DNA of 64,000 nt from an uncultured Schlesneria sp. Lineage in GTDB: Bacteria > Planctomycetota > Planctomycetia > Planctomycetales > Planctomycetaceae. Where the stretch lies: assembly GCA_903904835.1 (NCBI GenBank), contig CAIVEI010000124.1, positions 1 through 64,000 of the forward strand. The letters are read 5' to 3'. This document shows, one piece after another, positions 58,569 to 64,000 of the stretch. A program made the translations under genes and the position numbers. The notes under the pieces are model-generated. The model made no database searches and was not told the DNA's origin. It saw only the letters and a program-made list of their open reading frames with translations. Position 1 is the stretch's first letter, and each line of letters starts with the position of its first letter.

Positions 58569-59034
58569 ATGTCTGACGATCTTGAAGCCTTGGACAAGCG
58601 AAAGCGTGAACTGGAAATTCAATTCCTCGAAAAAGGACTGGCGAACCCGCTCCCGCCGTGGTGGAAACCAGAATTGGCGAAGATTGTTACGATACTCCTT
58701 GGCGTGACGGTCACAGGTTGGTTCGGTTGGTGTTTTGAGGGTCAGCGGCAGCAACTTCAAAAGCTGAGCAACCAGATGGGAAGTCTGACTACGGAATTGA
58801 ACAATCGGAAACTTGCCGTCGAAGTGCGTAAGCTGGAGTCCGAATCACTGTCATTCGAGTGCAACATCTACAATCCCGACATTTCCGTTGGCGACAGCAC
58901 GGGAGTAATTTCGCTTCGACCTTTGGTCTGTACTATTACAAATGAGGGGGAGACCCCGATCCACTTGAAGAGCTTGGAATATCGAATCTACACCGCTTCG
59001 TTGGAGCAAATCGTGACTACGGAACCGGTGGATT
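58569..59034 (+). pseudogene. Membrane protein gene, 5' part (interrupted)
   Basis: The ATG at 58569 with an aaggag leader starts a protein with a charged N-terminus, one membrane helix (IVTILLGVTVTGWFGWCFEG, about residues 39-58), a coiled coil (about 60-95: QQLQKLSNQMGSLTTELNN) and a beta-rich domain. The frame is cut at 59034 by the permuted helicase insert. Joining base 59034 to 61080 restores EPVD-SPKGDLELISG in frame and gives an intact 262-residue protein ending at 61402. The function is unknown; it may have belonged to the defence block. Confidence 0.85.
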
Positions 59035-61079
59035 TCCAGGGGGCATCGAGGTGATGGAGTGCCACAAGACGTTTCTGGACGTTGGTGCCGGTACCCATTT
59101 TCTGGGTACTGCCGATCAGCACGCGTACCGAGCCGTTGCGGACTTTCTCGAAGAGTGCCTGTTTTTTGGCATCGGATTCGGCATCCCCGATGGCGGCAAT
59201 CTGCTCGCGGGGAATGCCGTGGTCGATGAGTTTGGTGATGATCTCCTCATAGGGCGAATATCCCCAGGTGGTAGGATTCACGCCCATGTCGGCAAATATC
59301 ATTTGGGCGCCACGAGTTGTTGCCGTCCGCTCCCAGGTAGCAAAAACATTTTCAACCAGCCGGTTAATCTTCGTTTCCGGGAAATCCAGGGCCGTGGCCG
59401 ATAACATCCTCGCATCGGTCGCCAGTTTACGTCCGTCAGTGGTAATGGCTAGAGCATTGTCGACACGCGGGTCGACCCTTTGCGTACGAAGCCTGTCGTA
59501 TCGCTCGACCAGCTCCTGTTGTAATTCGTACTGCTCATCAGACATCGGGCATGCAACGACGATGGGCTTGCCGCCTTGCAGTCGCGGACGCGGCAGGTTC
59601 AGCATGTCCGCCGTTTGCACATCGGAGAATGCTCTGAACATCTGTTGTAGTTCGGGCAGATTGGTGAACCTAGCAAAGCGGCTACGGGGACGCAGTCCTG
59701 CACCATCGGGGGATAGTTCCATCGTGTCGACGACTTCACCGAACGTGGCCGCCCATGCGTCGAAATGTTCCAGGCCACGGCTGCGCAATCCTTCCGGATC
59801 GAGGAAGCGCTGCATCGTGTACATCTCGACCATCGTGTTGGAAATCGGCGTGCCAGTGGCAAAGGTCACCCCGTGACCGGTATGTTGTTCATCGAGGTAG
59901 CGGGCTTTCATATAGACATCGAATGCCCGTTCGGAACCGCCCGTCTGGATACCGGCAACGCGGTCCATCTTGGTCGGTGTTTCCAGATTCTTGAAATAAT
60001 GCGCCTCGTCGATGAATACGTGATCAACGCCGAGTTCGTCGAATACCAACCCGTCATCCTTCTTTTTCTCCGCCAGCAGGTTTTTGAGGCGTTCCGCCCG
60101 TGCTGCTTTTTGTTTTTCAATGGTTTTGATGAGATTGCGGTTGGCTCCCTTGGCACCTGCATGCTCGCGGAGTAATTCGTCATATTCCATGATTTGTTCG
60201 AGCAGGAATTTTTCCTGGTAGTCGCGTGACATACCGATCCGCTCGAAACTGCTGTGGGTTACGATGATGCCGTCCCATTCACCGCTGGCGATTTTGGCGG
60301 TTAAAAATTTGCGACGGTCTTTCGTCAGGTCTTCCTTGGCGGCAACCAGCAGCTTGGCATTGGGATAAAGCTGCATGAACTCGCGGGAAAACTGCTCCAG
60401 CAGATGGTTGGGCACAACGTACATCGGCTTTTTGATGAGACTGGCCTGCTTCATCTTCATTCCGGTTGCGGCCATCGTGAAGGTTTTTCCTGCTCCTACC
60501 ACATGGGCCAGCAGGGTATTGCCGGAACTCATGCCGCGCCACACCGCGTCGTTCTGGTGCGGACGAAGGGTGAGCGCCTGATTCATCCCCGGAAAATCCA
60601 GGTGCGAGCCGTCAAACAGACGGGGTCGCAGATTGTTGTAGGTATCGTTATAGATCCGCACCAACCGCTCGGTACGGTCGGGATCGGTGAATACCCAGTT
60701 ACGGAATTGTTCCTTGATGAGCTTTTGTTTTTCTCGTGCGGCCAGCGTCGCTTCCTGGTTCACCACACGTTCTTCGCGATCACCTTTATCGACCGTGTCG
60801 TAAATGGTCGGTGATTTCATATTAAGGGCAAGTTCCAACAGCCAGGTGCCGTTGGCTCTCGGTGTGCCAAAGTCCGACGTTGCCGCAACCGATGCTTCGG
60901 CGGCGTAATCGGGTTGTCGCCCGTGATCACCTGGCTGATAAACCGGGCCTTGGTTTCGAGAGCCTGCCACATATAGGCGTCGAACGACCCTTGCGTGACA
61001 TAGCGATAAATGGCGACTTGTTCGTTTTCATTACCCTGGCGAAGGATACGGCCATCGCGTTGTTCTACCTCGGCGGGTT
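59035..61079 (-). pseudogene. Circularly permuted fragment of a giant SNF2-type helicase gene, inserted in another gene
   Basis: On the minus strand, from 61077 to about 60912, the frame reads PAEVEQRDGRILRQGNENEQ and continues to KARFISQVITGDN, the C-terminal part of a SNF2-type helicase core. A junction then leads into FGTPRANGTWLLELALN, which belongs before the helicase core. From about 60880 to 59035 come LRPHQNDAVWRGMSSGNT, Walker A HVVGAGKTFT, DHVFIDEAHYFKNL and so on to VALHHLDAPWK. The two outer ends (DAPWK and PAEVEQ) are adjacent in intact helicases. The segment is therefore a circular permutation. It is homologous to the C-terminal part expected for the gene starting at 62909. No transposase or terminal repeats. 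Confidence 0.85.
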
Positions 61080-62094: not shown

Positions 62095-62535
62095 ATGTCA
62101 CGCAAACGCAAATCGGATCAACCAACTACGGATACGGAAGCAGCTATCAACACGGTCACGGCGGAAATAGCACCGGCAGAGAATGACCGGGAAACTCCGA
62201 CCTTCGTGGAACGGGTCGGAGGAAAAACGGAACGTGTGCTCACGCCCGATCCGTACGAGATCGCTGGTGACTATGCAGCCGGTGTCCGTCTCTTTGAGAG
62301 CAAACGTGACCAGCAGGTGGCGATCAAGTTTGACTCGAAACCCGGCCAGAAGGTGATCGACCGATTGAACGACGCGGGCTATCGCTGGAACCCAAGCCAC
62401 CAGATCTGGGTACATCCGGTTCGCCGCGAAACGGCAATGGGGACCCGCATTGACGCCGAACGCCTCTACCAAGAGGTTCGCCAGATGGTCCGCCAGGATA
62501 AAGGAGTCGAGGCTGAGCAGAAAACCCCCTTCTAA
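62095..62535 (+). CDS. Conserved mobile-element hypothetical protein
   Basis: 146 residues with a strong agggagga ribosome binding site. A disordered N-terminus is followed by a compact domain: YAAGVRLFESKRDQQVAIKF, DSKPGQKVIDRLNDAGYRWN, PSHQIWVHPV. I recall this domain from plasmids and integrative elements that also encode the giant methyltransferase/helicase, with which it is associated here. The function is unknown; a DNA-binding or anti-restriction role is a guess from context. First gene of the right-hand module. Confidence 0.75.
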   Translation: MSRKRKSDQPTTDTEAAINTVTAEIAPAENDRETPTFVERVGGKTERVLTPDPYEIAGDYAAGVRLFESKRDQQVAIKFDSKPGQKVIDRLNDAGYRWNPSHQIWVHPVRRETAMGTRIDAERLYQEVRQMVRQDKGVEAEQKTPF

Positions 62536-62758
62536 CCGACGCTGGAACGGGTCCGCGATGTACGCTCCTCCAAACTACTTCTTTTTTGCGTTAGATTCCC
62601 AGGCTCGGCAGATATCGGGCAACTGCAAGGACGAGCAGTTGGCGGTGTTCCTGAAAAACGTAGCTCTCGGTTCGCTGACACTCATAACCAGTCTTTCTTC
62701 AAGTAAGGTCTTAAAAGACCTTCCCGGATCACCCGATCGAGATCGGACGAGGTGACAC
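62536..62758. other. Short spacer
   Basis: About 220 bases. The 62704-62724 segment 'taaggtcttaaaagaccttcc' contains the perfect hairpin aaggtctt/aaagacctt, a possible terminator or attenuator in front of the next gene, though without a T run. Confidence 0.4.
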
Positions 62759-62905
62759 ATGCCTTGCAACCCCCGCACGGACCAACCAGTTCAGTCGCCA
62801 CGGGATGCAGGGCAAAGAAGACCGGATTCCCTTATTGCTGGAGGTAAACCGCACCCTTCCAGCCAAGCAATTGGCCGGGAACACCTAACCGAGTTACGCA
62901 AATGA
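62759..62905 (+). CDS. Small leader-like gene coupled to the methyltransferase/helicase gene
   Basis: 48 residues; the ATG at 62759 follows a cgaggtgacac leader. Polar and basic: CNPRTDQPVQSPRDAGQRRP, SSQAIGREHLTELRK. It has no recognised domain. Its stop TGA (62903-62905) lies three bases before the ATG of the giant gene at 62909, whose own ribosome binding site is weak. Translational coupling is therefore likely. Short length leaves the coding status open. Confidence 0.45.
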   Translation: MPCNPRTDQPVQSPRDAGQRRPDSLIAGGKPHPSSQAIGREHLTELRK

Positions 62906-62908
62906 CCT

Positions 62909-64000
62909 ATGCGTAAGAAACCACCCTTCTGGCGACAGCCATCACTTTTCCCACCGGATCTTGACGATTCACCTGAACCGAATAACCAGCTACCATCATC
63001 CACCGAAGGAGAGACACATGCAGTACAAGACCATCGTTCTTCAGCTTCTAGAACAACACCCGGAACTGTACCAACAACTCCGCAAGCGGCGGCAACTGCT
63101 TCCAGCACTGGAGACCTATTCCGAGCAATTGAAGGCGTTCCACCAGGACGAGATGGAATCCCTGTTACAGGCAATGCCGGGCAGCGACCCCATACAGATC
63201 AAAAGCGAAGCGCTGGAGATAGCCCTGAAAACATTCGAGGATCGTTTACCGATCAGTACCCATCGGGACGAGAACGAGACACTCTCCCTCGACCAGGCAA
63301 TGGCGTTCGTCCGAAATCGTTCGTCTCGCGACTAACCTCGTCGCGTAAACAACCGGGCCTGTTTGACTCACTTTCCGATGACCCGTTCGCGCCAGTTCCA
63401 CCACGCTCGAAGATACCCGAGCCGGGTATAGTAGATACCCCCAAGGGGATACCGTCGACTCCAGCGGTTGCAGATGTTCCGCCTTCCGATGCTCCAGAAC
63501 CGACGACATCCGCTTCCATTGCTAGCGGCGAAAAAGGCAAAGCCCGCGACATCATCGCCGCCATCCGCACGCTGAAGAAGATAGAGCAATCGGGCCGCAA
63601 GGCCACTGCTGATGAACGGCAGATACTCGCCCGCTTTGCCGGGTTCGGTCCGGTGGCTCTCTCGATATTCCCCGATCCGGTCAGGGGAACCTATAAGGAT
63701 TCTGGGTGGCAGGCACTGGGTGAAGAACTCAAATCCCTGCTGACACTTGCCGAATATGAAAGTGCCAAACGCACCACCTTCAATGCGTTCTACACGTCCC
63801 CAACGGTCATCACCGCGATCCATGAGGCCATCGCCCGCTTAGGCGTACCGGCCAACGCCACCATCCTGGAACCAGGATGCGGTACGGGCAATTTCATGGG
63901 GTACGGGAATAGGGAGGCACGATTTATTGGAATTGAGATGGATTTCCTATCGGGGCGGATTGCGAGAGCCATCCACCCCGGCCAGGACATCCGCATTGAA
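62909..64000 (+). CDS. Giant N6-methyltransferase/helicase-type protein, N-terminal part (runs off the window)
   Basis: The frame is open from the ATG at 62909 to the end of the window (364 codons so far). Residues 1 to about 205 are a low-complexity linker rich in Pro, Ser, Thr and Arg with two Q-x-x-L-F pentapeptides (QPSLF about 12-16, QPGLF about 148-152) of the sliding-clamp-binding type. From about 206 comes DIIAAIRTLKKIEQSGRKAT and ADERQILARFAGFGPVALSI, then FNAFYTSPTVITAIHEAI and the AdoMet motif LEPGCGTGNFMG (about 325). This is the N-terminus of DarB-like anti-restriction proteins, in which a methyltransferase is followed by a SNF2-type helicase. The helicase should follow beyond 64000. 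A complete 105-codon gene lies in another frame inside the linker. Confidence 0.8.
   Translation, partial: MRKKPPFWRQPSLFPPDLDDSPEPNNQLPSSTEGETHAVQDHRSSASRTTPGTVPTTPQAAATASSTGDLFRAIEGVPPGRDGIPVTGNAGQRPHTDQKRSAGDSPENIRGSFTDQYPSGRERDTLPRPGNGVRPKSFVSRLTSSRKQPGLFDSLSDDPFAPVPPRSKIPEPGIVDTPKGIPSTPAVADVPPSDAPEPTTSASIASGEKGKARDIIAAIRTLKKIEQSGRKATADERQILARFAGFGPVALSIFPDPVRGTYKDSGWQALGEELKSLLTLAEYESAKRTTFNAFYTSPTVITAIHEAIARLGVPANATILEPGCGTGNFMGYGNREARFIGIEMDFLSGRIARAIHPGQDIRIE
63018..63335 (+). CDS. Small conserved mobile-element protein, nested in the linker of the giant gene
   Basis: 105 residues from the ATG at 63018, with a strong gaaggagagacac ribosome binding site six bases upstream. It has good protein character: YKTIVLQLLEQHPELYQQLR, KRRQLLPALETYSEQLKAFH, IQIKSEALEIALKTFEDRLP, LSLDQAMAFVRNR. 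I recall this family as a stand-alone gene in plasmids and mobile elements encoding the same giant helicase; the function is unknown. It lies entirely within the 62909 gene in the +1-type alternative frame. Both frames stay open over the whole 318 bases. Confidence 0.75.
   Translation: MQYKTIVLQLLEQHPELYQQLRKRRQLLPALETYSEQLKAFHQDEMESLLQAMPGSDPIQIKSEALEIALKTFEDRLPISTHRDENETLSLDQAMAFVRNRSSRD

Follow-up and report, generated by a model that had tools for sequence, protein, structure and literature searches.

A conserved gene nested in the linker of a DarB-like methylase-helicase gene in Planctomycetes: evidence for same-strand double coding

On a contig from an uncultured Schlesneria sp., a short gene lies entirely within a much longer one, on the same strand and in another frame. 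Are both frames used, and if so, what keeps them together? We analysed the first 64,000 nucleotides of contig CAIVEI010000124.1 (hereafter the window) and compared the locus with its relatives. As an earlier note on this DNA had claimed, the giant frame that opens at ATG 62909 passes through 63018-63335 without a stop into methyltransferase sequence; it stays open to position 65554 of the 72016-base contig. The same note had found no ATG, GTG or TTG in the giant frame between 63182 and the methyltransferase part; the statement can be strengthened, as 62909 is the sole such codon of the giant frame upstream of that part in the window. The strong Shine-Dalgarno sequence attributed to the nested frame is indeed there, an AAGGAG six bases 5' of ATG 63018. 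The giant frame is in the +2 position of the small ATG, i.e. in the -1 frame relative to the small gene.

Table 1. Features of the locus (window positions unless stated otherwise).
Feature	Position	Strand	Remarks
Detached helicase half of giant	59033..61079	-	Match to residues 951-1633 of intact relative
146-aa upstream gene, same cassette	62095..62535	+	Contains TFVERV; conserved in 7 loci
65-aa upstream ORF, same cassette	62558..62755	+	Related ORF in 8 loci
48-codon ORF	62759..62905	+	Ends just ahead of giant ATG; similar ORF in 4 loci
Giant DarB-like gene: N-terminal linker and methyltransferase part	62909..64000, on to 65554 of contig	+	881 aa, broken past methyltransferase half
Giant-only N-terminus ahead of overlap	62909..63017	+	Conserved start, M.KKPP.WRQPSLF; dN/dS 0.33-0.46
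QPSLF motif of giant	62936..62950	+	Resembles beta sliding clamp-binding consensus
AAGGAG Shine-Dalgarno of nested gene	63006..63011	+	Sits inside giant frame
Nested small gene	63018..63335	+	105 aa, complete, predicted mostly helical, pI about 5.4
SFAxRV site, giant frame inside overlap	63242..63259	+	Reads SFTDQY in window, diverged in broken copy
Second SFAxRV-like peptide of giant, SFVSRL	63317..63334	+	End of overlap
QPGLF motif of giant	63350..63364	+	Past overlap
Start of folded region: LPD36-like, then methyltransferase	63521..64000	+	Match found; predicted helices from giant residue 206

The giant belongs with the DarB-like proteins. An intact relative of at least 1813 residues (L033 protein P0001) matches the PHROGs family phrog_10089, 'DarB-like antirestriction', with E=0, and also Pfam SNF2, ResIII and Helicase_C; such intact relatives unite an LPD36-like region, a methyltransferase and an SF2/SNF2 helicase in one protein. 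In the window, the methyltransferase/helicase gene described by the earlier note is present in its methyltransferase part only, the helicase half being detached and inverted. The methyltransferase half stops after 881 codons, with the break at residue 951 of the intact relative. On the minus strand, 60910-59033 matches residues 951-1576 of that relative, directly preceded on that strand by 61080-60907, which matches residues 1576-1633. The order of the helicase is thus permuted (1576-1633, then 951-1576); excision and reinsertion of a circle could give such an order, as could misassembly. The window's own genome holds no intact methylase-helicase dyad, and its giant is apparently a rearranged remnant, or a misassembly; its SFAxRV peptide, discussed below, has drifted to SFTDQY. 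The case for double coding is therefore built on relatives of this broken giant.

The small protein has no acceptable match in Pfam, NCBIfam, PADLOC or PHROGs, and no sequence relatives of its planctomycete form were found in IMG/VR, plasmids or phages. AlphaFold2 predicts helices at residues 3-12, 15-23, 27-52, 58-76 and 91-102 (mean pLDDT 78.5), in keeping with the structured helical product anticipated from the sequence. Comparison of this predicted fold with solved and viral structures gave no match with E below 0.5.

Searches recovered the small gene from 20 of 198 relatives, from 15 loci of a genome-contig search set and, as a family, from 37 of the 397 class genomes. A 392-genome draw from the phylum returned it only in the window's genome and in one genome of the same family. 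Named carriers are mostly Planctomycetota, with one MAG labelled Bacteroidales and one labelled 'bacterium' only. We retained the 54 distinct loci with a readable downstream methyltransferase. In all of them the methyltransferase has the identical phase (+2 of the small ATG), over distances from the small gene of about 320 to 740 bases. The giant start mostly lies at -97 to -139 from the small ATG, usually at -109, and is in a few cases GTG or TTG.

We then fixed each small protein, permuted its synonymous codons and counted stops in the giant frame. None is seen inside the small gene, against 109 expected (53 loci; as these are related, P values and probability products overstate their independence). 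The divergence of the small proteins, which are 25-60% identical to that of the window, should nonetheless still mean many independent substitutions. For the window's small gene alone, synonymous shuffles contain on average 4.4 giant-frame stops, and zero in 0.05% of cases. The reverse test, with the giant protein fixed, gives 0 small-frame stops against 44 expected; the third forward frame contains 3.3 stops per locus. The second frame is therefore open throughout and conserved in relatives, and no homologue has the 62909 frame interrupted inside the nested gene. We consider it very probable that this is a conserved same-strand nested gene, coding doubly with the giant DarB-like frame.

Nested genes reappear outside Planctomycetes. 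DarB-like plasmid genes of Pseudomonas, Xanthomonas, Burkholderia, Paraburkholderia and Stutzerimonas contain a 101-aa nested gene of another sequence family, about 130 bases past the giant start, in the same phase and usually with its own Shine-Dalgarno (e.g. L192:1154-1459 and L194-L201); the giant frame has 0 stops against 13.6 expected (9 loci). This form is matched by 62 plasmid records and is carried by the Pseudomonas putida DOT-T1E plasmid. In some plasmid records the small gene is annotated together with a truncated giant; in others only the giant is. Enterobacterial (Enterobacter, Citrobacter, Salmonella) and Campylobacter plasmids have nested relatives in the same phase, the Campylobacter form occurring in 212 records, six of which are Helicobacter. 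Five loci of the enterobacterial/Campylobacter type, including a Helicobacter copy whose giant frame ends shortly afterwards, show 0 stops against 22 expected. A nested gene also occurs in seven phages (L188:3540-3869, L209-L214), immediately 5' of the methyltransferase region and again in the same phase, with 0 stops against 7.5 expected. The phage small gene (MNLxNWI...HWKE) is mostly unannotated. By profile comparison, the phage and plasmid nested families match with P 1.9e-5 and a probability of 78%; with hhalign, the planctomycete family matches the phage one weakly (P 0.014 over 26 columns) and the plasmid set not at all. In those alphaproteobacterial DarBs that were examined, the linkers span 58-79 residues, and a nested gene with a Shine-Dalgarno is absent.

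How did the overlap arise? The earlier note had raised the alternative that the two genes were once consecutive and that the giant extended backwards over its neighbour. A nested frame that is now the more constrained of the two would fit such a history, as would two cases outside Planctomycetes: the small gene of phage PBC5 (L212), which unlike those of the other six phages is not inside a long frame but forms the tail of an upstream ORF, and the gene at L208:1501-1812, which is related to the proteobacterial nested gene but sits by itself on a Pseudomonas syringae plasmid that has no DarB-like gene. Among the planctomycete loci, however, none has the two genes consecutive. Backward extension is also made unlikely by giants that lack the nested gene but retain the N-terminal motifs on a short linker. 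This is seen in a Methylocella plasmid relative (MKSKPAQYTLPF) and in the same class, where 26 DarB-like giants lack the small gene and have short linkers, many with QxSLF-like and SFAxRV peptides. On the methyltransferase tree, whose backbone is not resolved and whose root is not placed, the small gene appears or disappears in 8 changes, against a shuffled mean of 21, at least three of the changes falling on well-supported branches. Since all small proteins of the planctomycete set are homologous, one origin followed by losses, or exchange of N-termini, appears more likely than repeated birth of the gene. It is possible, though on balance doubtful, that all these nested genes descend from a single ancient component of DarB-type methylase-helicases and have kept its phase in planctomycete elements, in proteobacterial and Campylobacter plasmids and in several phages. 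If so, a same-strand overprint would have been kept across phyla, hidden since gene callers annotate one frame.

Both frames bear marks of selection on their proteins. The comparison of synonymous and non-synonymous change proposed in the earlier note gives, for close pairs, dN/dS of 0.35-0.39 in the small frame and, just outside the overlap, of 0.33-0.46 in the giant stretch ahead of it and 0.42-0.48 past it; the methyltransferase has 0.10-0.12. A naive giant-frame value of 1.5 within the overlap was set aside, the measure being invalid for overlapping codons. Divergence there follows p3 > p1 > p2 of the small frame, as it does in the plasmid and phage sets. Because the least changed position, the second of the small codon, is the third of the giant codon, the small protein is the more constrained in the overlap. 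Over the whole overlap, the fourfold sites of the small gene show no excess conservation relative to the methyltransferase body (0.576 vs 0.548, P 0.2), so that most giant residues in the overlap are free to vary, and overall giant constraint inside it is weak.

One site stands out. A conservation peak (observed/expected 1.77) covers ELEDRL of the small protein, where the giant frame spells GGSFAxRV; the column z-scores from synonymous permutation are inflated by relatedness and served only for locating such peaks. Leu78 of the small protein is encoded by TTR in 37 of 46 cases vs 96 of 807 elsewhere (P 4e-24), and Arg77 by CGT in 24 of 31 vs 24 of 394 (P 6e-20). These rare codons yield the Phe of SFAxRV in the giant, a peptide found inside the overlap in 18 of 54 loci (0.6 by permutation) and in 16 of the 26 giants without the small gene. 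No other observation points as clearly to reading of the giant frame at this site. The view that the nested gene is constrained while the linker tolerates any sequence thus stands in its first part only, as the linker carries SFAxRV and QxSLF-like peptides.

Could the small gene alone be translated, with the giant starting past it and the upstream open frame a by-product of GC-rich codons? The freedom of the fourfold sites, and a giant start without Shine-Dalgarno, would agree with this. We nevertheless consider it very improbable, given the 109 stops missing when small proteins are fixed, a phase that is invariant though linker lengths differ greatly, the dN/dS of the giant stretch ahead of the overlap and the rare small-gene codons that encode a giant motif. 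Nor does the giant frame of the window offer a start codon between 62909 and the methyltransferase, and in the homologues there is no conserved start after the nested gene, i.e. past 63335.

At least five bases matching the Shine-Dalgarno sequence precede 72% of small starts and 6% of giant starts, compared with 2.7% of random positions (54 loci). An upstream ORF of 35 codons or more terminates beside the giant start in 25 of 53 loci, vs 10% at random upstream positions; the 48-codon ORF at 62759..62905 is a possible coupling leader of the giant. In several giants (L030, L032, L147-L149) a peptide MxQYCLxFPPIxxT lies in frame 5' of the QPSLF start, some with their own Shine-Dalgarno, and may be an alternative start or a leader.

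Because a programmed -1 shift out of the small gene would lead into the giant frame, a single fusion protein rather than two independent ones might be envisaged. The conserved upstream start and coding N-terminus of the giant make this highly improbable. A search for a slippery heptamer conserved in register found none, only 3 isolated matches. The converse idea, that only the giant is translated and the small ORF is one of the long chance frames common in GC-rich DNA, is extremely improbable in view of the p3 > p1 > p2 divergence that leaves the small frame more constrained, the strong conserved Shine-Dalgarno at the small start, the invariant M.Y.T of the small protein and its predicted helices. 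Overprinting as the earlier note described it is upheld by several findings: the phase is fixed, stops are absent, an upstream start is conserved, both flanks of the overlap evolve as coding sequence, and codon choice in the small gene serves the giant. At the level of sequence comparison, both frames have been kept open and constrained, with conserved starts.

The giant linker is predicted to be disordered over most of residues 20-204. It contains QxSLF-type peptides ahead of the overlap in 29 of 54 loci and past it in 25 of 54, vs 0.8 and 1.8 in shuffled linkers. These resemble in sequence the peptide QLxLF that is the consensus of beta sliding clamp-binding proteins (PMC4549789). The 146-aa gene at 62095-62535 has TFVERVG, of the SFAxRV type found in the giant linker; peptides of this type are possibly a docking or targeting signal shared within the element.

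Under double coding, both products would be made in the cell from one mRNA. Translation of the giant would begin at 62909, a start that lacks a Shine-Dalgarno and that in roughly half of the loci sits beside the stop of an upstream ORF, and would proceed along a disordered linker some 200 residues long before reaching LPD36, the methyltransferase and, where the copy is intact, the SNF2 helicase. A second set of ribosomes would initiate at 63018 from the strong internal Shine-Dalgarno and produce the small helical protein from the same bases. With few giant and many small initiations, the small protein would likely be in excess and could act on or with the giant enzyme, as a dedicated loading factor, stabiliser or inhibitor of it while the DNA of the element is protected on entry. 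The linker would serve as a tether with docking peptides. A role for the small protein as a partner of the DarB-like enzyme, made together with it, is quite possible, if short of probable: the constant association of the two genes in Planctomycetes, where the small gene was never met away from a giant on any contig long enough to tell, supports partnership, and the lone proteobacterial copy L208, without a giant, weakens the case for strict dependence.

Convincing long-lived nested genes are rare in bacteria, with only a handful in E. coli (PMC4683798, PMC9927249); here, double coding can be tested by sequence alone, in 54 planctomycete loci, and it reappears in other groups. The finding suggests that genes may hide in the disordered linkers of polyvalent proteins. 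It also hints that a widespread antirestriction system has a partner so far overlooked. Public records often annotate such loci wrongly, by omitting the small gene or by truncating the giant at its start. We found no report in the open-licence literature of overprinting in Planctomycetes, of nested genes in DarB or of overlaps in polyvalent proteins. No nested gene of the DarB family is described in the literature searched, and a paper on a DarB-carrying phage (PMC9144972) mentions none.

DarB of phage P1 is the archetype of the polyvalent 'DNA methylase-helicase dyad' (PMC5512222). The planctomycete giants share with it an LPD36-like region, an N6 methyltransferase and an SNF2 helicase in one polypeptide, and differ in their long overprinted linker. 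Among bacterial overlapping genes studied experimentally, nog1/citC and the E. coli O157:H7 set (PMC4683798, PMC9927249) likewise have a protein gene embedded in another in a different frame. Those are antisense, whereas the planctomycete gene is on the same strand; and nog1 is recent (Escherichia/Shigella/Salmonella clade), whereas the gene described here is conserved across a bacterial class and has its own strong Shine-Dalgarno. Rz1 inside Rz (PMC9144972) is also a same-strand gene wholly within another, in a different frame. Rz1 and Rz form a lysis pair; the planctomycete gene is instead nested in an antirestriction polyvalent protein gene, where the overlap falls in a linker predicted to be disordered.
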